Positions 1 through 53,104 of a DNA stretch of 64,000 nucleotides are shown in pieces. A program made the position numbers and the translations under genes. Location of the stretch: NCBI GenBank assembly GCA_019915015.1, contig JAHBBC010000010.1, forward strand, positions 1,116,001 to 1,180,000, in the 5' to 3' direction. Within the stretch, counting starts at the first letter, position 1, and each line of letters starts with the position of its first letter. The DNA comes from Auriscalpium vulgare. Its lineage: Eukaryota; Basidiomycota; Agaricomycetes; Russulales; Auriscalpiaceae. Below the pieces are notes generated by a model that saw only the letters and a program-made list of their open reading frames with translations, was not told where the DNA came from and searched no databases.

Positions 1-2019
1 TAGCGCTCACTGGCAGTGTATACCTTGGGATAAATATGTATATCTTGATCAGCAAAATACAGTGCAATAGGATGTTTAGAATCTGTCGGTGCAAATGTGA
101 TGAACCATGTTGGAGCCCCAATATAGCTCATAAGAGCCCACAGTTCATTGCGCTTGTACTTGTTATTTGTTCGTGAGCCTTGTACATGCTGAGCTACATG
201 GTCCAAATCATTGATAATTGCAAAGCATTCCTTCTCTGCCTCTCCATTAGCAGTTTCAAATTCACCATCTACCATTCGCTGAATCATATCATTTAGCACA
301 GCTTCATTTACACCAAGTAGTCGCCTGGCAATATCTGGAAAGGTTGCCTTTTGAGTTAGCAGATACCCTCCAGTATTGCTTCTTTTGATTTGTTCATGAT
401 TAAATGCAATCAGTGGGAACAAAGGCTCTAGTTGGAAGCGTTTGTCATGATACATCAACAGCGCCCGTTTTCGTGCGCTATCACTAATTTTTGAGTACCC
501 ATTCTCATTTCCAATGCCGCCAAGACCATAAGGGAAGAGCCAGGGAAAGGCCTGTGGATAGAGCTGAGGATTATCATATGTGCTCTCTGGTGTATCATTA
601 TGCCCTAGGCCAAGTGCATATCCATTTCTTGAGTTTATATACTGAAGTGCAAGGGCTTTTAACTGTGTGCCAGATTTCTTCTCCAGCTCAGCACCTGTCA
701 GTGTATGCAGAATGAATGGACATTCTCCTTCTACTGTACCTTCTTCATCTTCCGCAGATTTGTTTACCGCCTTGTCTTCAGAGTCTTTCTGTGATGGAGG
801 AATCCGGTAATCTATAATAACTGGAGGCTCATCTTCAGAATAGGTTGCAAGATTTTCATAAGAGATATTGAGGTCTGCATAGTCTGCATGATTGACTTTG
901 AGCCATTCCAGAGCAATAGCGACTTTGTTTCTGCGAACAAGAAATGGTGTTCTCCGATGCTCTCGAGTTGTAGGACGAGTGGGCCCAATATATACAAATG
1001 CCATCACATCATCTAGTTCATCTGCTCGAGGGGGCAAGACACTGTATATCCGTGGCATAGGCATTCCATACATCACTGCATTTGCAACCATTTTGTATTG
1101 ACCAGAGGCTTGCACTTTGATGACACATCCATTTCGACACACTCGGGCAATCAGCATTTTTTCTGTGAAGGACAAACCCTGCAACTGTGGGGGCACCTGC
1201 CCTATCCAATTGCCATTTGCCAAAGCCTGGGAAGGAATCTTTCCTTTCTCCAATACATTCAAGCATGGTTTGCATATCTTTGAACATGACTTGTCAAGAA
1301 TTGGACCTTCTTCTATCAGAATAGGGTCAAGAACAGACTTGCGTTCCACACGAGTAACGGGGTATATGCCGTTTGCATTCACAAGAAGATTATGTTCAAA
1401 ATCTGCTTCTTCTAAGGGAGTCATGGATTTGGATAAGGTCAGTGTTCCACACACCGCACATCCTTCCTCTAGTAAATTTTCCTTGTCAATAGCATCACAG
1501 TAATTTGTTACTATTTTGTGAAGCAGAGATACAGAGGGAGGCTTTGGAGGAAAGACTGCAACAGGCGCTGGCTGGACTTGCATTTGTTTAGCTAATTTTG
1601 TTCTCATCACCTTGGGTTTATCAACCCTGTTAAATTTGAAAAGAGTAGTGGCATCTGTACAAGCGGTACACATATCGGCATGTAACATATGTCCTTCCAT
1701 TAGATTATATATTTTGTTTGTTTTGTCGTTCCATTTGATAGTCAAATTGTGCAGGGCACATACCTCGATGAGCTGAAGCTTGTGCAGTCTAGTTAATTCT
1801 GCTAACGGCATCTTACAGATTATCCAGGATGTGCTATCTTCATAATTGATTGGTAATGTTGAGCCAATATGCTCGCCATGGCTACAAAACTCAAATTGGG
1901 AAAGTTGATGGAATTCATTGGTTGATGCAACAACTTGATATTGGACAAGCTCACTTAGCATCCACAGTGGCTTTTTCTTTCCACCTCCAGTCAACGTATG
2001 GCTTGCTGGTTCGGGAATC
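1..2019 (-). CDS. Helitron Rep-helicase protein, N-terminal part (copy A, cut by window edge)
   Basis: The minus strand is open from about 2019 to base 1 and matches, almost residue for residue, the first ~745 residues of the Helitron protein at 45.5-50.0 kb. Seen: a Cys-rich segment (CTACTDATTL), a CAVCGTL motif, the block NGNWIGQVPPQLQGLSF, and the start of the Helitron-like N domain (YFADQDIHIYPKVY) at the edge. The HUH motif, catalytic tyrosines and helicase would lie to the left of the window. The 5' boundary is placed at a plausible splice acceptor at 2020-2021; an upstream exon within 2020-2110 is possible. No internal stop was seen by eye. It lies on the same strand as D and AB of copy A, mirroring copy B. 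Confidence 0.85.
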
Positions 2020-2778
2020 CTAGTTATATAATTAGACAGATATACTACTATATTTATACACAAATAAACCAGAAATACATATATAATTATATCATAGTGC
2101 ATATTTTCAATGGGTCCTAGTCCTAGTAGTCCTTTGACTTCAAAATGCACCCTAGCAGACGTCCTTTGACGGTCAAACAAATTGGCGAGTGGACGTGCAT
2201 CGTATAATAGTTGCAAAGGATGTCCCATGGTGATGGTTCAGGTGAAAGGGCGCAATGAAATTTTCACCCTGGTTAAGCGACATTTCCTACGGTCACATGA
2301 CCTCTCGGATTTCTCCGTCCCGGTGTCATACTACATGTTGTAGTTTTGAAGATGTTCCAGATAAGGCCTGTATCTTGCGGCAAACCCACTCCCAGTCACC
2401 ACTGCTGTGTGTATTATTACCTCAGTCCACCGACGGCAGATATTCAAGCTACAATTGGTGTTAAGAATGGTGATCGCGAGGGCGGCCCCAGATGCGTCTC
2501 GTCTGGACCCGAGTAAGTTAACTACCCTTTTCAACAACTAAGTGGCTCATAAGCCCTAAGACCTACCCCTAGGTAGCAGGAATATCGGTCAATTATCTTC
2601 CGACCACACTACTGCCTCCCAAGTAACAAACCATATCGTGCCAAGTTGCAGGTTCAAGATTGGCCAACGGCATACATGAATTTTATATATGCCTAAGAAG
2701 GCATATCGAGAAGCACGACAAATGACAGGGCAAATAACCATGAATAGTACACATTTTAAAACAAACATCGCCCGCTGT
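2020..2778. other. Intergenic DNA between Helitron copy A and gene D copy A
   Basis: No convincing gene. The part next to the Helitron is AT-rich (about 2030-2110) and could hold its upstream intron or 5' end. The remainder is unremarkable. The matching interval of copy B carries gene E, of which I see no trace here. Confidence 0.4.
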
Positions 2779-5744
2779 CTATACATAGCCCCCCACAGTG
2801 GCCATGACGTTGGCACCCACAATGCTAAATCCCAAGCCCCACTGTCCGTCGCTCCGCTTGAATTTGTTAGCAGTGAAGAGGACACTGACGAGCGCCTCCC
2901 TGGGAACCTCACCCTGCCAGAGTGGACAAGGCATCTCTGGGCCTTTCTGCCGCGCAATGGACGGAATCCATACATTCGGACGGAAGGTACCATCCGTGGG
3001 GTTGTAGAAGTGCCGGCGGGCATCAAACACGGGCACTGTACAAAAAGGTCAGACATATTCAAAAGCCGTTGGTAGGAGACACTCACCATCATCAGTGGCC
3101 TTGAGCGCAGTGCGGGAGATCCGAGGGTCCATCAGATTATTGGTGCTGCTCCCAACAGCCTTTTTAACGACTGTGCGATTGGTAGTCACTATTGAACAAG
3201 ATATATCAGTAAGACGGCGAAGTGTCAGATTTCGAGGTATTTACCATTGCGCTTGGACTGGGATGTGCGATCAATGCTGCCCATCGCAGTGGTGAACTTG
3301 ATAGCACCAGTGGGAGTGCTCCAATAGATCATGTTGCGGCACCCCAGGAGATGCCCAAACATAGCAAAGCTGCGCTCTGCCTCCCCACCAATGGGAAAGC
3401 CTTCAATGCCGCGCTGGGACTTGGCTGCAGCTGCAAAGCCAACAGTCTGTCCATCTCCACACAAATATGAGTTGTCAAGGAAGACTTGCATCTCAAATAT
3501 GATTGTCTGCCCCGTCTCTGAATTGATCAATCCAAAAGACTCTTGGCCTGCTCGATGGTTTATGGCTACCATCGCAATCTGCGATGTGTCCAAGATGCGA
3601 ACTGGGCGATGGATGTTGGCAGCATCGTCAGAACCCAGACCTATGTAGTCGCAGATCGCACTGTAAAATCTGTAAGCATAAATATTGAATAAAGTAGGCT
3701 TCGCATATACCTATAACTGAGGTTCTGCCCATACTCATCGTCTCGTTTGAAAACAATTAGAGAGGCTGTCGCAATGTTGCCAGTCTGATTCATCGCCACA
3801 TTACTAAAGAGATGCATTAGTTCTAGTAGTAATAATAGTAGTAGATGAAGGACGTACCGAAGTGCTATCAGATGTTTGTAGCACAGATCGGGCTCTAGGT
3901 CTTCTGTCTGCGAGACTTCGTCGTCTTTCATCCAACCCATTCTAAACAAGATGTCAGATCAAGTTAAAATTAGCAAATGTGTCGCTCACCCGTCATCTTG
4001 ATTTTCAGCGGCGCCTTCATTGCCACTGGGAGATATACCAGCAGTCGTGGAAGGCTGCAGAGGCACAACAGTAGACTGCTCAGGCGCGATGGTGACGGAC
4101 ATGTCAGGCAATATGTTGACATTGAAGGATGCCACAGTCGATGAAGATGAGGTACTGTTTGCTTTAAAGACGTCCGATGTTGGGGAGAGGAATGGGGCCT
4201 GAGCCGGGTCGAATGGACTAGAGGGCCAAGCAATATAAGGCGAGATAGGCGAAGGAGGGTTGGCAGGAGGTTCATCAGGCGTAGGAGATGAATGCATGCT
4301 AGAGTTACATGGTGTTAGTATGAATTGTATGCCAGAGGGACGGGACACACATTGGCACAGCCGCCTTCTTCTTTCCGTTGACTTTGGCCTTGCGCACCTG
4401 CTCCAGGAGGAACTTCTTGTGAGCTGCTTCATCCTCATCCTCAGTGTCTGTGATGGCCGTCGGCGCCAGCATGGAGTCGCTGGAAGATGCCCCCGCTTGA
4501 CTACGCGAGGGTGTCTTAGGGTAGCGCTTTTTACTGGAAGGTGATATTAGTCACGTATGCATACTGAAATTTGCGCAACATACATAGGCGACAACTCCAC
4601 ATCTTCCTTGTTCTTGAAATGGACCTGAGGCCCAAAGCTGAGAACATAAAGAGTTAGTCATATAGAAAATGAAATGATATGGGCAACGTACACATCGTCA
4701 CTCGAAGCAATGAAGTCATTGAAACCTTCAAAGTCTGACGCATCGAAGTCAGAAAACTCAACGTCAGTCAGACCATCTTTGGCGTCGTCAGACTCTTCTG
4801 CCATGTTGTCAATAAACAGGCTGGTCTGTTTTTTGCCCTTCGGTGGTCCTCCTGTGCTGCATGGAATGTAAGTCTATGTTGCCGGCCATCTATATATTGA
4901 AGACAACTCACCGAACACCCATGCGATCCTTCCGAGTCTCCTTGGACTGAAGAGAGCTTGGCGCCAGCAAAAATGGGCTCCTGCAATACATGTGTCAGTT
5001 GTTGGTGTTGCATATGAGTAATGGAGAGGACATACAGAAGCTTAGCAGGCTCCGCAACCTTAGTCTTGGCCTTGCGCGGCGCTCCTGGAATGGCAGACTT
5101 CCCCTCCAGGGACCTAGTCCCAGATCAGTTGTCAAGGCCTATGTAAAATAAATAAAGGACGCACGGAGGAGTCAACTTCTGCAAAGCAGCGTTGTCTGCA
5201 TCCATGGGAACATCGTTAGGTGCAGGTATCACCGTGGGCTTCTTGACGCGCCTATACAAGTATATCAGCATATCAAACATCAATATATATACGAAAAACA
5301 CACCTCGCTGGCACAATGGACTGCTTTTTGGCAGCACACTTGACGGTCGGAGAGGACAGCAAAACAAAGCCCTCATCGTCAGATGAGGCGCTAAAGGCAT
5401 GTCAGACAATCAGCGTTACAAAGTATCGTTCAGCACACCTTTGCACAATGTAATCCGCCATCTCATCATCAGAGAGCTCGATGACAGAAGGTGTGGACAC
5501 CGCCTTGACACCTCGAGCCTTAGACTTAGCCAGCTTGGGAACCGTGACAGACAACTTGGGTGGCGCAGGCGCCCCCGACGCCGCAGAGGCAGCAAGCATG
5601 GCACTATATGAGAGGGATATCTTAGTCAAGGTAGAAAGCAATAAACAAATACTAAGATACTTGCCGTGTCGTGCGTCCAAGGAAGGGCTGGGCGGCCTTG
5701 CGACCAGCGATCTTGGAGATTTTCGCGGATTTAACAGGGGCCAT
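2779..5744 (-). CDS. Cassette gene D, copy A: unknown protein with conserved C-terminal beta-rich region
   Basis: Many short exons, starting at ATG 5744 (MAPVKSAKISK) and ending with stop 2779-2781 (VMATVGGYV). The first two thirds are low-complexity Ser/Pro/Lys-rich and acidic, probably disordered and nuclear. The C-terminal ~250 residues are conserved with the copy at 41.3-44.3 kb: blocks VFLDNSYLCGDGQTVG, FAMFGHLLGCRNMIYWSTP, FDARRHFYNPTDG, RPNVWIPSIARQKG and WGLGFSIVG. The final block resembles the closing strands of an OB-fold single-strand DNA-binding domain, but this is a guess from pattern alone. It is divergent from gene C with about 1.4 kb between start codons. I do not recognise the family. 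Exon edges are approximate. Confidence 0.7.
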
Positions 5745-7172
5745 TGGATATGAGTGATGAGCGGATGAAGCAAGAGCACAGGGGCAAGAGTAGGGGTAGG
5801 CGGGTGGGTAGTCTGCGTGTGGGGGCAAACTGGCTCTCCAGCGACGCTGCTGCTCCCTTTTATACAGGACAGACAGACGCGCAGTATCATCTGTGAGAAC
5901 ATCGACTTGGAGAAAATTGAGCTGGTAGTATGCCCACCAAGCTTACTACAAACATATTACCCAGACAAGGGCTGTACGTATCGGTCAAAGAGATGCAAAT
6001 CTGTTGGGGGAGGCCCCCGGGCGTATGCTGCCATGTGCAATGAGTACGGCAGAGAGCATCCCTGAGTGTTGCCAACCGGAGCGTTCTTCAGCCGGACCTA
6101 GCGTATCTGCGATTTGGGGTGGACGGCGGAGTAATACTGCAGAAAAACACTGTGGTATGGGATGAGGACTAGCTTAGGAACGTGCATCAAGCGCCTTAGC
6201 TGCGCGGTCAGGAGACCGACGCGTCCTAGGGCCACCAACGCGTAGGCGCTGTCCCAATTTTGGTCACGGAACCAACGGCCGATAGGATGGACACAAGTTA
6301 AGCGCTGTCAACGCGGTCAGGAGACTGACGCGTTGCAGGGACACAAACGCGTACGCGCTGTCTCAGGGATGCGACAGCCGATATGACCGCAACTCCGCAA
6401 CAGGGTTATAGATGAAGCAGCTATGGATGTAAACACGTACGCGTCACTTTAACTCCGCCCAGGTACAAAGACAGTGCTTCGCAGGATAGGCGTGCATCAG
6501 TAGAAGCATCATAAAGCTAAAAGCCTCTTTGTAGTGTAGCATATCAGCATCGCAGCCTCCCAAATCAGGAAATAATGCGAGTGACAAGTGAGAAGTTCAG
6601 ATAGTAGGAAATACAAAGGGCAGAACAAAAGCCAAGCCAGTACCAGGCAAGCGAGCAGCATTTGTCAGGCGAGATTGCGCACCGGTGACCTGGAAGCAAT
6701 CGCGCCCTCAGATCTCGTCGGTTATGGATGTCAGATGCAAAACATTGAGCGGAGTATTCATGTGACCGGGATGCTTAGAAATGGGACCAGGCAGGGTACC
6801 GGAGTATGTCCATCCCTGCAGAGACGAAGTGGGACATGTCCGCCACGGAGAAGGCAGCAGATGAGATCTCATCCGGTTGGAATCGAACTGCTCGTCGTGA
6901 GATGCGATGGCAGTTCAAGGGTGTGCATTGGCAGACTGAAACGCAGTTGTCAGGTACCCAAAGAAAAGCAAATACCTGCATACGCAATGCATGTAACAAT
7001 ATCCGTAAACCGGCGGCCGATGCCTGGAACATCCGAAATGCACGGTGTAGGCCTGTCTTTGGATCATCAGCATGGAGCGCATCTACGAAAAGGTCTTAAC
7101 GTCCACTTCGTCCATTTTTCCCCCCTCAACTCCTTCCGCCTCGCATCTCATCCATCGCCGACGTCGTTCACA
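5745..7172. promoter_or_regulatory. Divergent intergenic region between genes D and C (copy A)
   Basis: This 1.4-kb region separates two start codons on opposite strands and so must hold both promoters. It contains two direct repeats spaced 109 bp apart, each carrying the half-sites GCGGTCAGGAGAC and GACGCGT plus an AACGCGTA(G/C)GCGCTGTC box. ACGCGT, the core of fungal MBF/MluI cell-cycle boxes, recurs several times (6220-6430). No convincing gene is present. Confidence 0.55.
6202..6332. promoter_or_regulatory. Two copies of a near-palindromic CGCGGTCAGGAGAC-type motif
   Basis: Copies lie at 6202-6225 and 6310-6332. The second reads AACGCGGTCAG, GA, then GACTGACGCG, an imperfect inverted repeat with AACGCG(G)TCAG facing CTGACGCGTT. 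Bases 6310-6332 are the exact reverse complement of 40792-40814 in cassette B, although the surrounding intergenic DNA is hardly alignable. The likely role is binding of a cassette- or host-encoded regulator, or a replication or transposition protein. Confidence 0.6.
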
Positions 7173-8435
7173 ATGTCCTCCACAGACTTGGTCATATTCC
7201 TATCGCATCCTGACTGCCGTGCGCCGTCTCTCTCTTGGCTCAGCCTGTGGTCTACTTGCTAATGTGTCAGTATAGTAAAGCATGTACATGCCATGCTGGC
7301 AGACTTCCATGCTCGCCGCAACCCTCATGAGCAACTTACCGCTGTGCGTATCACAACTAAATTGCTGATGTTTGTGTTATTGATGTGCCCTAGGGGAGTG
7401 AGACGCCTGGACTCACCTATACCAGGAACGGCACGGACATTGCGTACATCCTGCAGAAGGATGTAACAGGAGAGACGTACGAGGCGGTCTTTGAAGTACA
7501 GGGTGTCCTTACGGACTTCGACTTGCCGCCAGTCACGGAAAGAAATCAGTACGTGAACCACATCTACAATTCATCAATGCGATCCTCACATCACAGTCTC
7601 AGACTCATGCCGAAGCCAGCTTGGGCCAAGCAGGCTGTCAAGATATGCGGTCTGGGCTCCCCGGTCTTTGACTCGTCGATTCGTGGCATAAGGACTCTTG
7701 GAGGTAAACTTGCGTCCCTTTACAAGGTTGGCGCTCTACAAGAGTGGTCTCCATCAGTGATCGGGGAATGGCCGAGCCTTGATTTTGCAACTCGCTATGT
7801 CACACCGCACGCATTTGCGAAGGGCCAACAGGCTGTCCCTTTCTCCAAGGATGTTGACCCTCAAGGCCTCTTGTTGAAGACCACGTCATCGGTGGGCGTT
7901 CATCTTGAAGACAATCAAGTACTGTACTATGAGGCACAACACAATGAGTACGTTGTTGTCGTGCTTTCATTCACCCCTCAGTACTCACCAGGACGCACAG
8001 CGATAATAAAGTTATCTATCACCCGATTGATCCAGCTGTCATACGCATTGGGCAGATCGTGCAGCTCCAGGTTGCTTTCACGTCAGTCCCGCTATGGGGG
8101 AAGAAGGGTCAGCATCAACTTGCCTGTAAACTGAGGTCAATTGCAATACTTGATCGTAATATTCAAGAGGTGCGTCTGGTTATCTCTATACCCTTTGCCT
8201 TGCCTAATATATGTCCTAGGCGTTTCAGTTGTCTGAGCATATACGTGTGCACCGTCCGTTGATGCAACGCATCCCAGCGGTTCCCAAACGTAGGGTGGGG
8301 TATGCGACCCCCGTTGCCAAGCGTACAAAGATGAGAGATTCTCCTGCAGACGGCAGTTCACCGATGGCCGTCGAGCAAGATATGGTGGGGCTATCGCTGG
8401 CGCAGGATAAAGAGAATAGTCCTATATCTTCGTAG
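7173..8435 (+). CDS. Cassette gene C, copy A: conserved protein of unknown function
   Basis: The start is ATG 7173 (MSSTDLVIFLSHPDC), matching MSPSDLTTFLANPDC in copy B; the end is TAG 8433-8435. Exons are separated by ~50-bp introns (for example 7340-7394 and after VTERNQ). Conserved blocks in order: DIAYILQKDVTGE, EAVFEVQGVLTDFDLPPVT, LMPKPAWAKQAVKICGLG, GEWPSLDFATRYVTPHAF, DPAVIRIGQIVQLQVAFTSV, LWGKKGQHQLACKLRS, and the tail SSPMAVEQDM.GLSLAQDKE. Over a 120-residue stretch I count 21 differences from copy B, mostly conservative, while third codon positions vary freely; this suggests purifying selection. No known domain is recognised; the GQIVQLQV...KLRS part could be a beta-barrel. Confidence 0.75.
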
Positions 8436-8939
8436 TATGTCTTGATCAATCTATTGGGTACAACGCACGTTGCGAAGAAGACCTTCATAAGCAAAGATAA
8501 GATAACGCAACTGACGGGGGAGCCCACCGGTGTGTCAATGGATACCGCTAGCAGGTAGCAAATACGAGGCTCCGTGGCACGGCGGCAGCGGCCCCACCAA
8601 GAAGAGTGTGATCATGAGTAGTTCATCATGGGCTGCCCGATGGACTGAAAGTCCACCGGAAAGAGTGTCTGAAAAGACACTCAACTGCACGTGAAATGCT
8701 AATGAGGAGTAAATAGGGTGTCAGGGTACAAAATATAGACACTTACTGATTGTTAATACAGCGTTGCCGCGGAAGAGGAGGCCGTGTCAATGTATCGTAA
8801 ATGGCGGCAGATGCTTGCGTCAGCCAACCCACCGTACCAGCATAAGTACTCACCTCGCGGATGGACGTTCCCTTCATTACAGATATGGAGACGTAGAATG
8901 GTACACATATGGCTACATATACGGACAACATACCGTATA
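8436..8939. other. Intergenic region with twin hairpins between genes C and AB (copy A)
   Basis: There is no gene here. It lies between the 3' ends of convergent genes C and AB. It contains two stem-loops (8637-8659 and 8663-8682) that recur elsewhere in the window. Confidence 0.45.
8637..8682. repeat. Twin hairpin element (member of a dispersed family)
   Basis: Hairpin 1 has stem TGGACT/AGTCCA with loop GAA, extended by CCG/CGG. Hairpin 2 has the 8-bp stem GAGTGTCT/AGACACTC with a GAAA loop. Related copies are at 24876-24920 (both hairpins) and 21935-21950 (hairpin 2). Base changes between copies partly preserve pairing. Confidence 0.5.
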
Positions 8940-18909: not shown

Positions 18910-18949
18910 GTACATACCTTTGGCGAACCTTCTCGAGTGTTGACCACGG

Positions 18950-39654: not shown

Positions 39655-40640
39655 CAGGCATGGTCTAGTTACCAGGCAACTCTGGAAAGTGGATACTCCG
39701 CCATTCCCGATAACCGTATCCGCCAAGATTGATGGGACGATATGCTCTAGCTCTGCACTGCTGAGTGTCGCTTGACAAATTGTCTATTGTATGTCTGGGC
39801 TTTGCCCTTCTTGTGGGTCTCATTTGCTCAAGATATTGTCCGAGCTCAGCTGGTAAAGTGTATTTGCCTTATGTGGCAAGCTGCGATGCTAATATGAGTC
39901 ATTTCTGTAGATGGTTTTAGGTTGTCATCCTTCTGCCGTCAAACAGGGAATATTACGTAGGCGTCCCTGAGGCTGTTCTAGGTCAATATTGCCAGGCGAA
40001 TGTCTTGGTACCCTGCCCAAAATAGGACGACGCGTCAACCCTGCAGCGCAAACCCTGCAGCGCATTGGTCTCCTGACCGCGTTCAAAGGCCGAAAACCTT
40101 TCATGCTGTTGGTCCGTTGTGAGCGGCCGCCGGTCGCTTGGCTTTGACAACACGTATGTGGATCGCTGGTCTCTCCCTATGCGTATTTGGATAGACTGAA
40201 TTCCTCTTGCACCCTGCATGCATGGTCTAGTTACCAGGCAACTTCTGCAACATGGATACTCCGCCACTCCCAATGACCTAACCGACAAGATCTATGGGGC
40301 GATGACCTTGAGCTCTGCATTGCCGAGCGTCGCTTGACAGATGCGTGTCCCTTGTCTGCAGCTGGTTGTTCTTGTGGGTCCCCCTCGCTCAAGATATTGT
40401 ACGTGCTCATTGGTTACAGTGTTGTTGCCTTTTCTGGGATACTGCAATGATGAGATGAATTATTTCTTTGGAAGGATTTAGGTTTGTTCTCCTTTGCCCA
40501 GTGGAACGGTAATATTACGTACGGGTTCCTGAAGATTGGCCTAGTTCCGTATCAGCAAACAAAGATCTTCGACCCCGGCTAAAACGGGAGGACACGTCAA
40601 CTCCACAGCACATTGGTCTCCTGACCGTGTTCAAAGCGAG
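39655..40640. repeat. Imperfect ~555-bp direct duplication
   Basis: The unit beginning TGGTCTAGTTACCAGGCAAC at 39661 recurs at 40223 with about 75-80% similarity by eye. Each copy ends with CATTGGTCTCCTGACCG (C or T) GTTCAAAG (40064 and 40612). Confidence 0.75.
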
Positions 40641-40791
40641 ATCCTCTTGCATTCTATTTCTCCGGTGCCAGCTGCGGGCACTCCCTTACGAAGGACTGTC
40701 TCCGGGCACATCGGCCGTCGGGCATGTAGCCGAGATATGTAGCCGACATTTGACATCCCATACGCGTGGCCGTCCCTGCACCATGCTTTGT

Positions 40792-40814
40792 CGCGTCAGT
40801 CTCCTGACCGCGTT
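40792..40814. promoter_or_regulatory. Cassette motif, 23 bp, exact inverse match to copy A
   Basis: Reads CGCGTCAGTC then TCCTGACCGCGTT. It equals the reverse complement of 6310-6332. Partial versions are at 40067-40084 and 40615-40632. Confidence 0.6.
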
Positions 40815-41335
40815 ATACGGAACACTCTTTGTCTGGTTCTATCAGCCGTCGGTTAACTAGCCAAAAATAGTACCAGGTCTGTCTCCTTGCAATCCGTAGT
40901 CTCAAACTGAAGATGTGCCTCTGTAGTCATTCTCCGTTGTGCACCCCAAATCGTAGATGTTACTCGGGCTAATCTACCCACCGGTCGGGAATAACAATGC
41001 AGGTCAGTGCGCCCGTCCTCTGGACCATGCCGTATTCATTGCTCTGGACACGGTGCACTCCGGGTCCATCCCCAACGGATCTCTAGCCAATGAGTACTCT
41101 GCCTCAGCGTAACACTGTGTAGTAAGCTTGACATGTAGAACGCCGGTTGTGTCTGCAATTTTCTACAAGTCGATATTCTCACAAAGTCGCTCAGCTGTTG
41201 CTTGCTGTATATAAGCGCATCGCTGCCGTCTCATGAGTGTCAGTTTGCCCCGACACGCGGACTACCTCTTCGACTACTTGCTTCTCGTTGACTACTCACT
41301 GCTCTTCTCAACCCTCCCTTCAATACATCATTTCA

Positions 41336-44300: not shown

Positions 44301-44338
44301 TTATGGCCACCCTTGGTGGCTATGTGTATCGCGGCTAG
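41336..44338 (+). CDS. Cassette gene D, copy B: unknown protein with conserved C-terminal region
   Basis: ATG 41336 (MAPTTRSTQSSKTS), stop TAG 44336-44338 (MATLGGYVYRG). About a dozen short exons in the 5' half encode low-complexity basic and acidic stretches, including a 13-residue repeat EEEDSSGMVHVEE (42399-42512) and a Lys-rich, coiled-coil-like piece (HLLLKQKLIKQQLAKEKAML). The conserved C-terminal half: RIRTIKIGFRKGMESWGLWD, VVGVLDNSFLLELGQTFGN, MLAMFGVFFDDRTMSYWSSP, IWDSRRHFYHQTNG, MPDPLWVGEIPRESLVNILF, SDGTWGLGFNIVGGQVM. The alternation of hydrophobic strands and the WGLGFNIVG motif are compatible with an OB-like nucleic-acid-binding fold, but that is speculation. Divergent from gene C. 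Confidence 0.7.
42399..42512 (+). repeat. 39-bp coding tandem repeat (acidic 13-mer)
   Basis: Three units of (V/I)EEEDSSGMVH(V/I) in gene D copy B (GTTGAAGAGGAGGACTCCTC type), not present in copy A. Confidence 0.85.
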
Positions 44339-44640
44339 GTGGTTGTTGGTGGATGGATTGCGAGGCGAGTAAGGCTTAGTTATGTGTCCGTTCGTACTTT
44401 GTATTGGGTCGTAGCATGTGCCCTGTTATGAAAACCTCTCTGCTCATCTCCCCATTATGTGTGAAAGCATTATGTGTCTAAGTCTTCTTGAATAGAATGC
44501 AACCAAGTTGCTCAGGATGACTTCGTCTTAGGCCCAATATTCTATGCCTCAACACTAATGCCTCATTATCATCACTGCGCAATGCCTAAACGCAATGGGT
44601 ATGTATTCAAGACTGTTCGATTCCATGCTATATATAACAC

Positions 44641-45410
44641 TCAGGGTGTAAAAGTAATGACAGCGTCACCAGTTATGGGATGAGCAACAGAGTCTATGTC
44701 TAAAGGTAGAATGGGGAACTGAAGTCTACGGATGCAAGACTGTGTGGATGGGCACCAGAAAGTAATGAGCTCTGGGCTCATAACCATGTCTTCGTCAGTC
44801 TGCTCCACTTCATCCTCAGGTATATAACTGTACGTAACGGTGTCCGGTCCAGGTCCAATCTCCTTGATGCAAATGTACCGTGCTGGTGACGTTGATTCTG
44901 CACGAAAAGTGTTTGGATAAATGCAGTATATCGTGCGGGGGCGGAGGTGCAAATAGCGAGGTAGGGGCGCCAGGTATGTGATCTTGTTGGCATGCCTGTG
45001 CACACGCACCCGGTGATCCGTCGCATTTGCAACGTCCACATTGTGGTCTTGTGCAATGTAGACCATGGCTGCAAGGTCTGCGTACTGTAACCGGGTCAGA
45101 GAGCCCATAGCGACGCGCAAGTTCTACCACACCCTATGCATGTTGTTAGCATACATGGTTTTCCGGAAGGTATAGGACAACGTACATGTCAAATTCCATC
45201 TCCTGGGTCTGGCCCTCTAAAGGCTTCTGCTCCCATTTCCATACGTCTCTGTAATGCGATCAGATGTAGTAGATGCAGTATAAGACGTTCGTCCCACCTA
45301 TTATCCATTACACCGATGTGCCCCTCAGGCAATTGAAAGACACACCCATCCTCCACGAGATACTTTGTCACATCTAAGTAGACACATCGGAGAGGGTGAA
45401 GTCTGTCCAT
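44641..45410 (-). CDS. Gene E: small unrecognised protein, copy B only
   Basis: Probable ATG 45410 (MDRLHPLRCVYLDVTKYLVE); a 49-nt intron after VMDN (GTGGGA...TTACAG, about 45252-45300) leads to VWKWEQKPLEGQTQEMEFDM. A second intron (donor GTACGT near 45188) precedes a 3' exon with QYADLAAMVYIAQDHNVDVA, YLHLRPRTIYCIYPNTF and a stop at 44641. The phase across the second intron could not be resolved. No family recognised. It lies on the opposite strand, between D and the Helitron, and has no counterpart in copy A. Confidence 0.45.
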
Positions 45411-45544
45411 GACTGCAACATGAGTGAAAGCGAAGAAGGGGAAGGGATGGCATGTGATGACATAATTGTGGCAAACAATTGCAAACAACGGCAAACACCA
45501 AGGTGAAAGTTTCTAGGCGCCTCCCTTTGAACTGAACCACCACC

Positions 45545-48500
45545 ATGGGACATCCTCTGCAGCTCTTGCGCGACACACACTTATTCATTACACTGCATTC
45601 ATGTCAAAGGACAATAGCTAATGAGCACAGTAAAGTCAAAGAACTTATATGGCAAGGGCCGATGCACAAAGTGCTGAGCTGCGCAATCATAAGCATTGTT
45701 CTGTTTTATCTGTTGAACTATGCCACAAAATGCAAACTTTTCTTACGCGGAACTGACATGCTGGAGGACACAAAACAGACTTTAATTGGCGGTGGAAGAA
45801 AGAAAAAGCCATTATGGTTGCTGAGCGAGCTTGTCCAATATCAAGTCGTTGCTTCAACCAAAGACTTTCATCAGCTTTCTCAGTTTGAGTTCGGTGGCCA
45901 CGGTCCACATGTTGCCTTGAAGATTGCAGAGAATCATGAAGATGATGTTCAGTGGATACTGTGTCAGATGCCATTATCAGAGTTGACTCGACTGCACAAG
46001 CTTGACCTAATTGAGATATGCGCCATGCATAATTTGAGCATTAAATGGAATGACAAGACAAATAAAATATATGATATGATGGAGGGTCATATGTTACATG
46101 CTGATATGTGTACTGCTTGTGCAGACGCATCTACCCTTTTCAAATTCAGCGGAGTTGATAAACCCAAGGTGACGAGGACAAAAACAGCTAAACAGTTGCA
46201 GGTCCAGCCAGCCCCTATTGCAGTCTTTCCACCAAAGCCTCCCTCAGCGTCTCTACTCCACAAAATAGTAACAAATTATTGCAATGCTATTGATAAAGAA
46301 AATTTATTGGAGGAAGGATGTGCAGTATGTGGCACATTGACCACTTCAAAAACGATGATTCCCCTGGATGAAGCAGATTTTGAACGTGACCTACTTGTAA
46401 ATAACAATGGTCTTTACCCTGTGACCCGGATCGAACGCAAGTCAGTTGATGACCCTATTCTGTTTGAAGAAGGTCCAATTCTGGACAAGGCATGCTCAAA
46501 GGTCTGCAAACCATGCTTGGATATTCTGGAAAAGGGAAAGATTCCATCTCAGGCTTTAGCAAATGGGAATTGGATTGGGGATGTGCCCACACAATTGCAA
46601 GGTTTGTCATTTGCAGAGAAGATGCTTATCGCCAGGGTATGTCGCAACGGATGTGTGATCAAAGTACAATCCTCTGGTCAATATAAAATGGTTGCAAATG
46701 CAGTAATGTATGCGATGCCTATGCCGCGGATATACAGTGTTCTACCACCTCGAGCAGAAGAATTAGACGATGTGATGGCATTTGTATATATTGGACCGAC
46801 TCGTCCTACAATACGAGAACATCGGAGAACCCCGTTTCTTGTGCGTAGAAATAAAGTGGCCATTGCCCTTGAATGGCTCAAAGTCAACCATGCAGACTAT
46901 GCAGACCTTACCATCTCCTATGACAATCTTGCGACCTACTCTGAAGATGAACCCCCAGTTATAATTGATTACCGTATACCTCCATCAGAGAAAGACTCTG
47001 AAGACAAGGCAGTAAACAAGTCTTCTGAAGACGAAGAAGGTACAGCGGAGGGGGAATGCCCTTTCATTATGCATACCTTAACAGGTGCTGAGCTTGAGAA
47101 GAAGTCTGGTACACAGTTAAAAGCCCTTGCACTTCAGTATATAAACTCAAAAAATGGATACGCACTTGGCCTAGGTCACAATGATACACCAGAGAGTACA
47201 TATAACAATCCTCAGCTATATCCCCAAGCCTTTCCTTGGCTTTTCCCTTATGGTCTTGGTGGTATTGGAAATGAGAATGGGTACTCAAAAATCAGTGATA
47301 GTGCCCGAAAATGTGCATTGTTGATGTATCACGACAAGCGCTTTCAATTGGAACCTTTGTTCCCACTTATAGCATTTAATCACGAACAAATAAAACGAAG
47401 CAATACTGGGGGGTATTTGCTCACTCAGAAAGCGTCCTTTCCAGATATTGCTAGGCGGTTACTCAATGTGAATGAAGTTGTGCTGAATGATATGATCCAG
47501 AGGATGGTAGATGGTGAATTTGAAACTGCTAATGGAGAGGCAGAAAAAGAGTGCTTTGCAATTATCAACGACTTGGACCATGTCGCTCAGCATGTGCAAG
47601 GCTCACGAACAAACAATAAATATAAGCGTAATGAGCTTTGGGCTCTCATGAGCTATATTGGGGCTCCAACCTGGTTTATTACGTTTGCACCAACAGATTC
47701 TAAACATCCAATTGCACTATATTTTGCTGACCAGGACATACACATTTATCCCAAGGTATATACCGCTAGTGAACGATATCGCTTGATTGCAAACAATCCT
47801 GTGTCTGGTGCGCGCTTCTTCAAATTCATGGTGGAGACATTTATCAAGGTTGTACTTGGGGTAGGTGCAGACCATGATGGGTTGTTTGGTAAAACAGCTG
47901 CCTACTATGGTACTGTGGAACAACAGGGGAGATTGACTTTGCACTTACATATGCTTCTATGGATTCAAAACGCATTAACACCGCAGGAGGTAAGGGATCG
48001 AATTGTAGCGGGTGATTCTGAATTTCAAAGACAATTGGTAGAATATCTAGAAGGCTCACATCAAGGCCAATTCATTAATGGAACTCTGAATGATGTCCAC
48101 AGTCAAATTCAAGACAACTTGGAAAGAGGTGATAGTGGGTTAGATCCCACTTGTACCTTGCCAGAGCATCCACCCAAGATGTGCTCTAACCATGTGACAC
48201 TTCAAGATGATGAATGTACATCTTGCTCTGAAAGTAAATCATGGTGGGCATGCATGTGGGAGACAGCAGATGAACTGATATTCCGCTCTAATCGTCATAG
48301 ATGTCATGCAGGTTGCACTAACAAAAAGTATTCCTCATGCAAATCACGTTTTCCTCGTGAAGTACATGCTGAGACCTCAGTGGATATGGGTACAGGTGCA
48401 ATCGAATTGAAACATGGTGAGGCCTGGCTAAACACATTCAACCCTACATTGACTTACCTCATTAGGTGCAACTCGGATGTTGCCAGTCTTCTATCTGGAA

Positions 48501-50044
48501 CTGCTATTAAATCTATTATAGCATATGTGACTGACTATATAACCAAGACACCTTTAAAGACTCATGTCATGTTAGAGGCTATCAAGTCAGTCTTTAATCG
48601 CAACTCTGAGTTTCTTAGCGGAACTGCGACGCAAATGGAAAAGGCACGCAAGGTCATGGTTCAAGTGGTAAACTCTATGACTACCAAGATGGAAATAGGT
48701 GGCCCAATGGCATCTCTCTATGTGTTAGGTCATCCTGACCATTACACTAGTCATAAATTTAAGACATTTTATTGGCGGCCATTTATTAATGAAGTGAAAA
48801 GATATTGGAACTCCCTGGAGCCTGAAGAGGAGAATGGAGATCGTGTTGTAATCAACAAAGTAAAAGGAAAAATTGTTGCATTGACTACTGTAGATGACTT
48901 TACCAAGCGCCCTGTGGACTATGAAGCTATGTCTCTCTATGATTGGTGTCGCTTTGCTACCAAGTTCAAGATTCCCAAAAACGGAAAGGCAAATGAACAA
49001 GAAGTAGCTGAGAATGCTGATCTTGACAATCAATATGACATGATGGATATAGACCGAGACCTAGATCAAAAAATACAGGTTGGTGGTGGCGGTGATGATG
49101 AGCATATGGTGATAGAGATTGAAAGTGACACAGAAAAGACAATCGTTGATAGTGATGATGAGATGGATATTGAGGATGATGATATGAGCACAGTCGTGAA
49201 TAATTCTGATGATGAAGACTATGAAATGAGCATTAATAGCACAGAGGCAGACGATAGTTCATCTGACTATGTACAGCCCAAGGCAAAGAAAGGCACTAAA
49301 CGAAAGGGCCAAAAAGACAAGAAGCCAAAAGAGTACCCCCATTTTTTAGCGGGACATCCTCAATGTGAAACACATACCATACGACTGGCATCTGAGGATG
49401 AGCCAATTGTCCCCAATTTTGTTGGAGGAACTCTGCCTAGAAAAGACAAGGGAAATTATGAGGACTATTGTTTGACCATGCTTACTTTATTCAAACCTTG
49501 GCGTGTGGGCTCTGATCTAAAACTTGATGGTCAAACTTGGCAGGAGGCCTTTGAGACATACACTTTTACCCCTCGACAGCTGGAGTTGATGAAATTCTTT
49601 CACATACGATATGAATGCAATGATGCACGAGATGACTTTCATGCTCAGCGCAAGGCCGCAGAGAAAGCGAACAAAAAAATGGGGTTCAATCCTATCTTTG
49701 GTCATTTCCAGGACGATTTGGATGCACAATATAGTGAGGATTGCAACACAGAGGAAGCGCTCAATGGCAAGGAGCTTGAATGGTTGAGTGCTCAATTTGA
49801 TGAGGTGAGTGGGAAAACAGCAAACAAAGCAATACAGATGGCCGAAATTGAACAAGTTTTGCAGAGTGGGGGTTGGGCTGCAGCTGACAGGGACAATGGA
49901 TGGAGTATTGATACAGATGTTACAAATGGTGATATCATGACAGGAAAGCAATGGAAGGATGTCCTGTCGGATAAAAAAAAGAAGTCCTCAACAACAAGCA
50001 GGCACAGTACCAGCAAGTTGGAAAGGACAACGAACCATCCCTGA
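45545..50044 (+). CDS. Helitron Rep part of a RepHel protein (copy B)
   Basis: A 1,499-codon frame. In order: an uncertain N-terminus, a Cys-rich segment, an N-terminal domain of the kind annotated as DUF6570 in fungal Helitrons (CAVCGTL ... GNWIGDVPTQLQG), the Helitron-like N domain, then the rolling-circle Rep signatures: HLH at residues 800-802 (GRLTLHLHMLLWI) and the tyrosine pair Y994/Y998 (IIAYVTDYITK). An acidic linker (~1180-1250) and a basic stretch follow. Rep nicks and rejoins a single strand during rolling-circle transposition. The frame ends at 50044, whereas the helicase continues in the -1 frame; the switch maps to an A8 run at 49973-49980. The DNA is more A/T-rich than the surroundings. 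The first ~75 residues do not match copy A well, so the true start may be a later exon. Confidence 0.9.
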   Translation: MGHPLQLLRDTHLFITLHSCQRTIANEHSKVKELIWQGPMHKVLSCAIISIVLFYLLNYATKCKLFLRGTDMLEDTKQTLIGGGRKKKPLWLLSELVQYQVVASTKDFHQLSQFEFGGHGPHVALKIAENHEDDVQWILCQMPLSELTRLHKLDLIEICAMHNLSIKWNDKTNKIYDMMEGHMLHADMCTACADASTLFKFSGVDKPKVTRTKTAKQLQVQPAPIAVFPPKPPSASLLHKIVTNYCNAIDKENLLEEGCAVCGTLTTSKTMIPLDEADFERDLLVNNNGLYPVTRIERKSVDDPILFEEGPILDKACSKVCKPCLDILEKGKIPSQALANGNWIGDVPTQLQGLSFAEKMLIARVCRNGCVIKVQSSGQYKMVANAVMYAMPMPRIYSVLPPRAEELDDVMAFVYIGPTRPTIREHRRTPFLVRRNKVAIALEWLKVNHADYADLTISYDNLATYSEDEPPVIIDYRIPPSEKDSEDKAVNKSSEDEEGTAEGECPFIMHTLTGAELEKKSGTQLKALALQYINSKNGYALGLGHNDTPESTYNNPQLYPQAFPWLFPYGLGGIGNENGYSKISDSARKCALLMYHDKRFQLEPLFPLIAFNHEQIKRSNTGGYLLTQKASFPDIARRLLNVNEVVLNDMIQRMVDGEFETANGEAEKECFAIINDLDHVAQHVQGSRTNNKYKRNELWALMSYIGAPTWFITFAPTDSKHPIALYFADQDIHIYPKVYTASERYRLIANNPVSGARFFKFMVETFIKVVLGVGADHDGLFGKTAAYYGTVEQQGRLTLHLHMLLWIQNALTPQEVRDRIVAGDSEFQRQLVEYLEGSHQGQFINGTLNDVHSQIQDNLERGDSGLDPTCTLPEHPPKMCSNHVTLQDDECTSCSESKSWWACMWETADELIFRSNRHRCHAGCTNKKYSSCKSRFPREVHAETSVDMGTGAIELKHGEAWLNTFNPTLTYLIRCNSDVASLLSGTAIKSIIAYVTDYITKTPLKTHVMLEAIKSVFNRNSEFLSGTATQMEKARKVMVQVVNSMTTKMEIGGPMASLYVLGHPDHYTSHKFKTFYWRPFINEVKRYWNSLEPEEENGDRVVINKVKGKIVALTTVDDFTKRPVDYEAMSLYDWCRFATKFKIPKNGKANEQEVAENADLDNQYDMMDIDRDLDQKIQVGGGGDDEHMVIEIESDTEKTIVDSDDEMDIEDDDMSTVVNNSDDEDYEMSINSTEADDSSSDYVQPKAKKGTKRKGQKDKKPKEYPHFLAGHPQCETHTIRLASEDEPIVPNFVGGTLPRKDKGNYEDYCLTMLTLFKPWRVGSDLKLDGQTWQEAFETYTFTPRQLELMKFFHIRYECNDARDDFHAQRKAAEKANKKMGFNPIFGHFQDDLDAQYSEDCNTEEALNGKELEWLSAQFDEVSGKTANKAIQMAEIEQVLQSGGWAAADRDNGWSIDTDVTNGDIMTGKQWKDVLSDKKKKSSTTSRHSTSKLERTTNHP
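49975..49981 (+). other. Candidate -1 ribosomal frameshift heptamer (A AAA AAG) or homopolymer indel
   Basis: In the Rep frame the codons are GAT AAA AAA AAG AAG. Slipping back one base gives AAA AAA GAA GTC CTC, which continues through coherent sequence (NNKQAQYQQVGKDNEPSLNG) into the helicase without a stop. The arrangement fits the X XXY YYZ pattern. A one-base deletion in a former A9 run, or an assembly error, explains it equally well. Confidence 0.5.
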
Positions 50045-52971
50045 ATGGCATACCAAAGCCATATAATGTTAATGAAGTTAAAGTGGTAGATCGTGAGTTC
50101 TTATACAAGACCTTTAAAGCCGTCAGTGAAGAAGATGCCCGACTTATTGATGAGGTAGCTCAAGAATACACGCTTAATGAAGAGCAAGAACGAGCTTATC
50201 GCATTATAGCAAATCACTCTGTTGATGCATTTGCTGAACAACTCAAGATGCATATTGGAGGGATGGCGGGCACAGGTAAATCTCAAGTTATAAAGGCTCT
50301 CATGGCTCTCTTTGACAAGCAAAAGCGTAGTTACGTATTTCTGATAATGGCTCCTACTGGTACAGCAGCTGCCTTGGTGTCAGGGTCAACTTATCATTCA
50401 ATTCTTGGCTTCCAGGGAGGAGGAGACGGACCTGGCAGTGGCGTAAGTGAAACAGCAACTACAATGTCAAAGATTCGAGAGCGGTTGAAATGTGTCAAAT
50501 ATGTTTTCTTAGACGAGGTATCTATGATCGACTGTGGTGACTTCTATCATATAAGCTCTCAAATGAGCCTTGCTTTACAAAGTGATGATCAAGCATTTGG
50601 TGGCAAGAATATGATTTTTGCTGGTGACTTTGCACAATTACCCCCTATTCAGACAAAAGGGCCTGCACTATATAGCCACAATGTATCAACCGTTCTGGGT
50701 ACCACCAATGGCTTTAGAGAACAACAAAGGACAATTGGCAAGGCTTTATGGCATCAAACAACTGTTGTTGTCCTCTTGAGACAGAATATGCGACAACGCT
50801 CACAGACAGAAAGAGATGCACAGTTCCGTGTAGCATTGGAAAATATGCGTTACAAATCATGTACTCCACATGACATCGCGCTTCTGCGATCTAGAATTAA
50901 AGGGCCTCAAAATCCAGATGTTGATCCAAATCATCCCAATTTTTGCTTCGTGTCTGTAATCACTGCTTTCAACTCTCAGCGTGATCAAATTAATACTACA
51001 ATGTCAGATCGTTTTGCTCTAGAAACAAATCAAGTGTTGAAACCTTTTTATAGTGTCGATAAATGGAAATCAAGGGAGCCTACCACTACAAAATCTAAAG
51101 GCAAACAACTTGATCCAAAGCGAAAGTCAAACAATGTACCTCCTGAGATGCAAGCAAAGCTGCATAGTCTGCCTCATGGTGTTACAATGAACATTCCTGG
51201 TGTTCTCAAGCTTTGCCATGGCTTACCTGTTATGATAAAGCGCAATGAAGCAACTGAAGTGTGCGTTACCAATGGTGCAGAAGGCACTGTTGTAGGTTGG
51301 CAATCACATGCACTAGATAATGACAGAGAAACTCTGGATGTTGTATTTGTAAAGTTGACAAAGCCGCCAACCAATGTTCAACTTGAGGGTCTGCCAGAAA
51401 ATGTTGTGCCGCTGTCCAAACAATCTTTACCTATCAAATGCAATACTCCCAATGACGGCAACATTTTCATCTCTCGAGACCAGGTTCCTATTGTGCCTAA
51501 TTTTGCAATGACAGACTATGCATCGCAAGGAAGAACACGTCCATTTAATGTTGTGGACCCGTTCAGGTGTCGTACTCACTATTCTATGTATACATGTCTA
51601 TCAAGAAGTGCAAGCTTGGATGGCACTATTCTAATGCGTGACTTTTCTGCTGCCATTATAACGGGGGGTCTCCCTGGCCATGTTCGCCAGGAGTTTAGAG
51701 AGTTAGAGCTATTAGATGAGATTACTCGGTTGCGCTATATAGGTGAACTTCCTAGTGATATCAATGCTTCAACACGTAGCACATTGATCAAGCAGTATAG
51801 AGCCTGGGTTGGAGCTGACCATGTGCCAGGCAATGTGCATTCTTCTATCAAGTGGTCCAAGTACAACCCACTGGTAATACCAGAAGTGGGTGAAGATGCC
51901 CCATGGCAGCGAGTCACATCCAAGGGAAATAAAAGGTCAACAAACCCAAAACCAGCTGCACAGGGGACAAAACGAAAATATGATGACACTGACCTTGCAA
52001 ATGGTTTTGTCCCTGCAATAGGGACTCAGCCAGTAACCCAACTTAATACTGATAATGGGCCTGCTCGCATTGTGAAAAGGCGAAAAGTTGTGGCCAATGT
52101 GAGTTCAATTGCTATCTCAGGAAGAGAGCGCAAGGGCTATATCTGGAATGCAGATACCTGGAGTTGTGCTTATGACAGTCTGCTCACAATTCTCTTTCAA
52201 GTGTTCATAAACCACAATCAAATATGGACTAGGGATGTTGCTTCAATAAATCCTTACATCACTTTGATATCTGAGGGATGGAATCAGATCATGACTGGAC
52301 AGCCCCTCACTACTCTAGAACAATTTCGTAATTCTCTCCAGGCTCAACTCCACCAAAGGGATCCCAATGGATATCCAATGGATAATATCAATGGGACTGA
52401 TATTTATAGTCTCTGCCGGTTGATGCTCTCAAGTGACAAATACCTTTTTCATATTATACATAAATGTACATCTTGCAATACCATAGCATCTGATAGACAA
52501 TACAATACTCCTTTCTGGACCTTGGAGAAGGATGTCAGTCAACCTGTGTCATCAGAACTAAACAAGGTATTAAGTATGACAACTACCCGTCTCTGTCAAT
52601 CATGCCAAAGACCTTTAGTAAAGATTACAGACTTGAGTGCCCATCCTCCTCCTCTACTCGGCATTGCTTTGCCCTATGCAGGTACAACAAAGTTAAAGAT
52701 AAAACAGACCATGCATGTTGGTGGTAGCAATAATAAGGTAATGTACAAGCTGAAAGGTATTATCTATTTTGCACATGCTCATTTTACTGCACGTATGATA
52801 GGAGACTCAGCTGAAACATGGTTTCATGATGGAATAACCACAGGCAGGGTTTGTATCACTGAGGAGAAGTTCAACACAATATCGGACATATATCAAACAA
52901 GAGGATACAAGGCATCTGTTTTGATATATAGTACAGTATATAGGAATTCAACTGTCCCTGCACTAGCCTAA
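49981..52971 (+). CDS. Helitron Pif1-like helicase with C-terminal USP-like peptidase domain (copy B)
   Basis: Open from 49981 in the -1 frame relative to Rep; the first in-frame candidate start is not needed if it is made by frameshifting. Counting from the GTG at 50083: Walker A GMAGTGKS (~60-67), Walker B FLDEVSM (~143-148), GDFAQLPP, and the superfamily-1 C-terminal motifs TDYASQGRTR and YTCLSRS. Pif1-type helicases unwind DNA during rolling-circle transposition. The last ~270 residues carry a separate domain: DTWSCAYDSLLTILF (Cys 695), two CxxC pairs (CTSC, CQSC) and IYFAHAHFTARM (His 900) with WFHDGITTG, resembling ubiquitin-specific peptidase Cys and His boxes with a zinc finger between. 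Stop at 52969-52971. Confidence 0.9.
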   Translation, partial: EVLNNKQAQYQQVGKDNEPSLNGIPKPYNVNEVKVVDREFLYKTFKAVSEEDARLIDEVAQEYTLNEEQERAYRIIANHSVDAFAEQLKMHIGGMAGTGKSQVIKALMALFDKQKRSYVFLIMAPTGTAAALVSGSTYHSILGFQGGGDGPGSGVSETATTMSKIRERLKCVKYVFLDEVSMIDCGDFYHISSQMSLALQSDDQAFGGKNMIFAGDFAQLPPIQTKGPALYSHNVSTVLGTTNGFREQQRTIGKALWHQTTVVVLLRQNMRQRSQTERDAQFRVALENMRYKSCTPHDIALLRSRIKGPQNPDVDPNHPNFCFVSVITAFNSQRDQINTTMSDRFALETNQVLKPFYSVDKWKSREPTTTKSKGKQLDPKRKSNNVPPEMQAKLHSLPHGVTMNIPGVLKLCHGLPVMIKRNEATEVCVTNGAEGTVVGWQSHALDNDRETLDVVFVKLTKPPTNVQLEGLPENVVPLSKQSLPIKCNTPNDGNIFISRDQVPIVPNFAMTDYASQGRTRPFNVVDPFRCRTHYSMYTCLSRSASLDGTILMRDFSAAIITGGLPGHVRQEFRELELLDEITRLRYIGELPSDINASTRSTLIKQYRAWVGADHVPGNVHSSIKWSKYNPLVIPEVGEDAPWQRVTSKGNKRSTNPKPAAQGTKRKYDDTDLANGFVPAIGTQPVTQLNTDNGPARIVKRRKVVANVSSIAISGRERKGYIWNADTWSCAYDSLLTILFQVFINHNQIWTRDVASINPYITLISEGWNQIMTGQPLTTLEQFRNSLQAQLHQRDPNGYPMDNINGTDIYSLCRLMLSSDKYLFHIIHKCTSCNTIASDRQYNTPFWTLEKDVSQPVSSELNKVLSMTTTRLCQSCQRPLVKITDLSAHPPPLLGIALPYAGTTKLKIKQTMHVGGSNNKVMYKLKGIIYFAHAHFTARMIGDSAETWFHDGITTGRVCITEEKFNTISDIYQTRGYKASVLIYSTVYRNSTVPALA

Positions 52972-53052
52972 ATGTAGTATAAGATGGTTTACAGGGAACT
53001 TTCAATTGCACTTCACATGTTGTAAATTACCCCTCCCCCTCCCTCCTCCCAA

Positions 53053-53070
53053 ACGATTAAGAGTAATCGT
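53053..53070 (+). repeat. Palindrome 82 bp after the helicase stop, possible Helitron 3' hairpin
   Basis: ACGATTAAGAGTAATCGT (7-bp stem), preceded by a pyrimidine-rich tract and identical to 22603-22620. Helitrons end in a short hairpin close to a CTRR terminus; a CTGG lies ~18 bp downstream, which is weak support. Confidence 0.4.
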
Positions 53071-53104
53071 ACTGCCATGCTTGCACTGGCCATTCCCCCC
53101 CAAG

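Follow-up and report, generated by a model that had tools for sequence, protein, structure and literature searches.

A giant form of Helitron2-type elements in Auriscalpium vulgare, with several cargo genes probably under selection

Background

A window of 64,000 nucleotides of the Auriscalpium vulgare genome (C10:1116001-1180000, from a 51.6-Mb assembly in 96 contigs) contains two sets of the same genes in mirror-image order, each next to a Helitron Rep-helicase (RepHel). The locus raises the question of whether these genes are the selected cargo of very large transposons, parts of a duplicated host locus, or host fragments that Helitrons inserted near or captured. A previous sequence-only reading had suggested a selected unit, possibly a very large Helitron with cargo, and this is now supported by exact termini, two precise empty sites, a further copy on C23 whose exons are 100% identical to those of one element, dispersed co-occurrence of the genes and purifying selection. 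In a survey of the literature covering titles, abstract openings and part of the matches, no element with this gene set (AB-C-D-RepHel) was found. Iyer 2014 reportedly deals with TET genes and KDZ transposons.

Results

Two inverted gene series in the window

Comparison of the six-frame ORFs of the window with each other revealed a colinear inverted series AB-C-D-RepHel in two strongly diverged copies standing head to head, one in element L and one in element R (Table 1). In this comparison AB at 13.8-8.9 kb (-) pairs with 32.6-37.7 kb (+), C at 7.3-8.4 kb (+) with 39.1-38.0 kb (-), D at 5.6-2.8 kb (-) with 41.7-44.3 kb (+), and RepHel at 2237-1 (-) with the region from 45536 onwards (+). The best pairs between L and R match at 83% over 748 aa for RepHel, 82% over 120 aa for C, 42% over 144 aa for a D exon and 41% over 705 aa for B (E 1e-173). 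An ungapped repeat search recovered the same inverted arms (longest, 1826 nt), so that the inverted, diverged copies with C on the opposite strand, as first described from the sequence, were found again by two comparisons. Exon chaining, performed with a custom script and not with a trained gene finder, indicated short introns and open frames in the cassette. That the frames look open had also been stated before; this stands for the cargo and does not stand for the RepHel of R, which is split. Likewise, both arms do belong to the copies, to which the GC-rich centre (14-32 kb), omitted from the earlier description, has to be added since it also lies inside the elements.

Table 1. Features of elements L and R and of the flank of R, in window positions
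Feature	Position	Strand	Remarks
Element L, giant Helitron2-type	1..22622 in window	-	27,975 bp in all; inserted into R; 80/80 bases of the joined flanks found at C23:387193 onwards
RepHel of L, N-terminal part	1..2237	-	cut by window edge only; open for 2475 aa in genome
D of L	2779..5599	-	ORF comparison, exon chaining, genome search
C of L	7293..8435	+	strand opposite to other genes
AB of L	8940..13805	-	A, N-terminal domain, probably TET/JBP-like dioxygenase; B, orphan domain, modelled as helical; ORF comparison, exon chaining
GC-rich, CpG-dense tandem-repeat region upstream of AB in L	14000..21600		19-nt and longer units
5' terminal hairpin / asymmetric terminal inverted repeat of L	22603..22620	-	7-bp stem, 4-nt loop; z -1.6
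Element R, major part	22623..53104	+	31,807 bp without L; 80/80 bases of the joined flanks found at window 53534-53613
Gene E, 427-aa ORF in 5' part of R	23067..24350	-	homologues in 5/19 A-bearing elements and beside classical TET genes
GC-rich, CpG-dense tandem-repeat region upstream of AB in R	25900..32300		20/40-, 246-, 282-nt units
AB of R	32579..37686	+	ORF comparison, exon chaining, genome searches
C of R	37970..39435	-	possible N-terminal exon to about 39.4 kb, by eye from ORF list
D of R	41700..44338	+	ORF comparison, exon chaining, genome search
RepHel of R	45536..52971	+	split: frames 45536-50044 + 49975-52971 (1502 + 998 aa)
3' subterminal hairpin of R	53053..53070	+	inverted copy of 5' terminal repeat; 34 nt before 3' end CCAAG; z -3.8
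469-bp tandem repeat, insertion site of R	53105..54042		flank; supplies empty site

Ends, nesting and empty sites

Element L starts at window position 22622, from which it reads leftwards as TTACGATTACTCTTAATCGT..., and its 3' end lies outside the window at C10:1110648, 5353 bp left of base 1. It sits reversed within the 5' part of R, whose initial 1.3 kb are found to the left of L (C10:1109323-1110647). That L interrupts R is indicated by a third copy located on C23, because the C10 sequence adjoining L on the left is, over 1231 bp, almost the same as the C23 sequence immediately left of the equivalent of window position 22623. Position 22622 was also considered as a boundary of R and was rejected, as it is the insertion point of L and the comparison with C23 places the true 5' end of R at C10:1109323. 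The C23 copy measures 31,034 bp, and its flanks differ on either side. The exons of A, B, C and D that were searched match those of R at 100%, and the DNA of the stretches fetched is 96.8-100% identical, with the minimum in the repeat-rich 5' part. Comparing this copy with R defined the termini of the family, which starts with TTACGATTACTCTTAATCGT... and ends with ...ACGATTAAGAGTAATCGT followed by 34 nt ending in CCAAG. End-to-end lengths were measured for these three copies (L, R and C23).

An empty insertion site, the search for which had been proposed together with the sequence-only reading, was found for both L and R: joining the flanks of either element reproduces it over 80/80 bases, and both insertions were therefore precise and without target-site duplication. 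A single T is retained at the target and can be assigned to the element only ambiguously (N|T, in the form A|T for L, R and the copy on C23). R lies in a 469-bp tandem repeat, and a 68-bp tandem array adjoins these repeats at window positions 54048-54599. L and R both represent full-length copies from a single giant Helitron2-type family, and their inverted arrangement is a nested insertion and not a duplicated palindrome.

RepHel, terminal hairpins and copies of the ends

The RepHel of R comprises a DUF6570 domain, a Helitron_like_N domain with an HUH motif (HLH) and a PIF1 helicase with a Walker A motif. That of the C23 copy is open for 2478 aa; judging from its split frames, R may no longer be autonomous. 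The assignment to Helitron2 is based on termini, insertion mode and RepHel domains: an HUH Rep and a PIF1 helicase occur in RepHel, hairpins are found at both ends with a subterminal copy at the 3' end, and no target-site duplication is present. Helitron1 ends (5'-TC, CTRR-3') are absent, those of the family being TTACG and CCAAG. As far as described in the available text of the sources, Helitron2 and FoHeli elements begin with T, carry a hairpin at each end and asymmetric inverted repeats whose 3' copy is subterminal, and leave the target site unchanged (PMC3627910, PMC5148889, PMC4067079).

The 5' hairpin of L is equalled or exceeded in folding by 10 of 200 shuffled sequences. In the genome the hairpin pattern occurs in 138 copies, against 4 for the reversed control, and the 3'-end pattern, with up to 3 mismatches, has 88 + 94 matches against 1 + 0 for its control. 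All 14 exact-match 3' ends (window, C23 and 12 others) read ...CCAAGT and are then followed by differing sequence. A set of "type X" ends was examined as possible 3' ends of another family and rejected; these are 5' ends of the same giant-Helitron family. A short element of about 2.5 kb (L105, C2:1614400-1617300) has both ends in common with the giant Helitrons, and since a spacing of ca. 2.5 kb recurs between the listed places of the hairpin and 3'-end patterns, such elements may be non-autonomous partners. At one locus, two 5' end hairpins (L075 and L082) were seen in tandem, similar to the multiple 5' ends described for Fusarium Helitrons in the available text of PMC5148889.

Dispersal of the cassette in the genome

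Translated whole-genome searches located, among the matches listed, 19 A, 20 B (23 matched pieces), 31 C and 12 D loci together with at least 49 RepHel loci (50 matches, two being pieces of one locus). Among these matches, a RepHel occurs in fixed relative orientation within 30 kb downstream of A in 18/19, B in 18/20, C in 29/31 and D in 12/12 cases, with a chance expectation of about 1.4% (0.014) per locus; at 25 kb the counts are 14, 16, 27 and 12. Cassette genes apart from Helitrons, which the sequence-only reading had named as evidence against it, thus amount to a single A locus, two loci each of B and C and none of D among the matches listed. These are C2:2539382, where A, B and C occur together and RepHel has no match among those listed, a B fragment at C35 and a C fragment at C33. 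Conversely, C is the cargo gene that most often accompanies RepHel, being found upstream on the opposite strand within 45 kb at 29 of the 49 RepHel loci listed and absent at the other 20. Five loci (C7:1374721, C9:838701, C19:371893, C58:37611 and C9:1432578) display RepHel with a distant C (35% identity) and no A, B or D match nearby, so that C may be the oldest cargo partner.

Selection and exchange of the cargo

Values of dN/dS, whose calculation per gene between copies had also been proposed earlier, indicate purifying selection on A, B and C in the copies compared. For B (15 of 20 copies) they range from 0.16 to 0.25 in pairs with dS of 0.18-3.1 and from 0.23 to 0.59 where dS is below 0.09; four pairs have a dS of zero or almost zero and are uninformative, and many distant pairs are saturated. 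The A core (11 of 19 copies) gave 0.02-0.20 where dS is finite, and the C exon (10 of 31 copies) mostly 0.06-0.24, the exceptions being the closest pair at 0 and two identical pairs. For the D exon (10 of 12 copies), dN/dS is 0.25-0.50 between diverged copies and 0.1-1.9 among seven near-identical copies, in which changes are few and five pairs exceed 1. Based on these values, A, B and C are maintained by selection, and D probably is as well.

The elements are also mosaics. When R is compared with the element at C10:1083680, the DNA is 98.5% identical over window positions 41949-45572 (D and beyond) and 98.8% over 45815-49459 (RepHel). Identity falls to 87% at 37970-40438, a stretch that includes C and extends past it, and to 66-70% in A and B. 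The dS values are 0.008 (D), 0.92 (C), 1.2 (A) and 1.5 (B); the change-over in this pair lies between about 40.4 and 41.9 kb. In seven elements, D is at least 95% identical to that of R at the amino acid level and the A exons, those of the C23 copy excepted, are 42-66% identical. Because identity and dS differ between blocks of the same elements, the 5' cargo block (A-B-C) has been exchanged between lineages against a nearly constant 3' block (D-RepHel) in these seven elements.

The AB gene

A and B are interpreted as exons belonging to a single fused gene since two Dentipellis proteins (P0001 and P0005) hold both parts in one chain. Among the best 7989 word-sharing candidates, which were the ones scored, 4 proteins related to B were found, 2 of them carrying organism names (Dentipellis and Lyophyllum). 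In seven aligned A sequences H58, D60, H111 and R130 are invariant, and the motif HxD...H...R (iron triad and 2-oxoglutarate-binding R) occurs in P0001 and in all 19 genome copies, of which identity to R falls as low as 42%. Pfam returned Tet_JBP (PF12851) as the sole oxygenase family for A, with matches for 5 of 7 A rows (best E 5.3e-5, all below cut-off) and for 4 of 6 A cores (best 23.0 bits against a cut-off of 34.9; two match nothing), the best case being collinear over profile positions 79-161. Full-length P0001 and P0005 gave no Tet_JBP match in Pfam, and no A locus was among the 25 matches (to E 10) of a whole-genome scan with the Tet_JBP model. A profile of A matched none of the solved structures and showed no significant alignment to a CcTet-type protein encoded in this genome (hhalign probability 0.5%). 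Given these sub-threshold matches and the negative scan, structure and CcTet comparisons, A is graded as a probable, not proven, TET/JBP-like Fe(II)/2-oxoglutarate dioxygenase. It is not of the PE type, which is defined by HxE (PMC12730594, as far as its available text goes), all 19 copies having HxD.

In the AlphaFold model of P0001 the A part has block means of 20-36 pLDDT, too low for use, and B (residues 485-1117) is predicted to be all-helical, with 441 residues of the chain at pLDDT of at least 70. A fold search with this model against the PDB yielded 0 matches at E 0.001 (226 at E 10), B finding no structural relative in the search and no informative database match. One viral match of the model, to a phage RNA polymerase (E 4.7e-4), was discarded as chance (probability 0.41, TM 0.07).

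Genes C, D and E and the CpG-dense blocks

Nine proteins related to C come from Auriscalpium, Artomyces, Dentipellis and Amylostereum; C gave no RPA match, and its structure model is poor, with a pLDDT of 46. Pieces of B, C, D and E searched against solved structures, PHROGs, NCBIfam and Pfam returned nothing informative. Homologues of E lie 1.9-3.3 kb downstream, on the same strand, of 8 of the 11 Tet_JBP genes above the Pfam cut-off in the same genome. The E loci of the search are on C8, C9, C10, C13, C14 and C18, and other E homologues occur away from TET genes and giant Helitrons. Several of the E-TET cases score identically and resemble copies within a single family, so perhaps 2-3 are independent; the one E-linked TET gene examined is related to CcTet (E 7e-13).

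The GC-rich blocks upstream of AB contain 125-132 CpG per kb (observed/expected 1.2), compared with 19-21 per kb (0.44-0.46) in RepHel and ratios of 0.69-0.95 in the other genes. Stretches fetched from C23 that match the GC-rich region of R extend to about 27.3 kb in window positions. With base composition and codon use uncontrolled, the CpG contrast would be consistent with methylated CpG having decayed in RepHel and not in the repeats. In Laccaria bicolor, oxidised methylcytosines are enriched in a Helitron family according to the available text of PMC8889193.

Discussion

Comparison with known systems

The following comparisons refer to the available text of each source. The elements share a 5' T, hairpins at both ends, an unchanged target site, RepHel and nested copies with Helitron2 (PMC3627910) and with FoHeli of Fusarium oxysporum (PMC5148889), from which they differ by four or five cargo genes besides RepHel, a CpG-dense tandem-repeat block and 5' cargo exchange. 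They measure about 28-32 kb in the three copies measured, compared with about 5-11 kb for FoHeli; the subterminal 3' copy is 34 nt from the end, compared with 38-51 bp in FoHeli1/2; and the target is N|T where Helitron2 targets are T-rich (PMC5148889). Helitron2 itself is known, and what is new here is a giant, cargo-carrying form of it.

Fungal transposons bearing TET genes, including a Helitron2 of Agaricus bisporus, were described by Kojima 2025 (PMC12730594), who proposed that such genes resist methylation; the present elements resemble them as DNA transposons with a TET/JBP-like gene. Compared by description, the A. bisporus TET is of the PE type (HxE), whereas A has HxD and appears fused to the orphan B. 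For the Russulales, Kyakuja is the only TET carrier reported in the available text of that study. HELPO1 of Pleurotus ostreatus (PMC4289320) likewise exemplifies basidiomycete Helitrons with one to four extra genes, with capB having homologues in other basidiomycetes; its largest copy described is 12.2 kb and its extra genes are downstream of RepHel, the cap genes having been compared by description. Helentrons with OTU, tegument-type deubiquitinase or RPA genes (PMC4067079, PMC9741609) are similarly rolling-circle elements with accessory domains thought to help the element, from which the present family differs in that AP endonuclease, OTU and RPA had no Pfam match in the 10 ORFs scanned.

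Alternative explanations

If a host locus with a Helitron in it had been duplicated as a palindrome, this would account for the inverted symmetry about 23 kb and for the related GC-rich blocks. The exact empty sites of both elements refute such a duplication, which was rejected once C23 provided that of L; the differing flanks of the 14 exact-match 3' ends and the many dispersed copies also speak against it. A segmental duplication of host genes, which the sequence-only reading had named as an outcome that would refute it, is not what is seen in this genome. It is improbable, though somewhat less so, that Helitrons inserted near, or captured, host gene fragments that have no function for the element. 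Helitrons do carry captured fragments (available text of PMC4289320 and PMC6431247), and the RepHel loci listed that have no C upstream would agree with such passive cargo. Captured fragments should decay, however, whereas here dN/dS of B stays low over a wide range of dS and is likewise low for A and C, frames are long and open, the active-site residues persist in every A copy and RepHel keeps the same relative place at nearly all A loci. A giant Helitron2-type family with several cargo genes under selection, the function of AB being left apart, is therefore the reading we prefer, with a probability of ca. 0.85.

What AB does is a separate matter. The odds are somewhat against, yet by no means heavily against, AB being no DNA demethylase, in which case it would act on another substrate (RNA, protein or 6mA) or add a mark. 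The similarity of A to Tet_JBP is weak, and Kojima 2025 (PMC12730594, available text) pointed out that CcTET is active on 6mA and that CMD1 transfers a glyceryl group. Against this, no other oxygenase family was returned for A by Pfam, the best match is collinear with the profile, and transposon-borne TET genes are reported in several fungal lineages in the same text. A counter-silencing role of AB, with B as a targeting or partner domain, is the most likely reading, at about even odds.

Proposed mechanism and significance

By analogy with the family, RepHel would nick the ends of the element and copy it as a circle, the 5' hairpin marking the start and its inverted copy near the 3' end the stop. 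AB would oxidise methylated bases on the element, perhaps in the CpG-dense repeats just upstream of it, and host silencing would thereby be countered, B possibly serving for targeting or as a partner domain; C and D might, as a guess, be replication or ssDNA accessory proteins. An anti-silencing function of the cargo is thus plausible and unproven. A more far-reaching view, which we put forward tentatively, is that of virus-like giant Helitrons with a self-contained epigenetic counter-defence, in which a fourth class of transposon-borne TET-like enzyme would be fused to a targeting domain, the CpG-dense block would be its own substrate, E would be a partner gene common to TET-linked loci and the 5' cargo would be swapped like phage modules.

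B, C, D and E represent four protein families with no relative of known function in the libraries searched. The difference in dS between D (0.008) and A and B (1.2-1.5) in the same pair of elements is a clear case of modular exchange within a rolling-circle transposon. Finally, elements of 28-32 kb with exact ends, selected genes and a near-identical copy elsewhere make it possible to ask directly whether transposons bring demethylases of their own with which to escape silencing.
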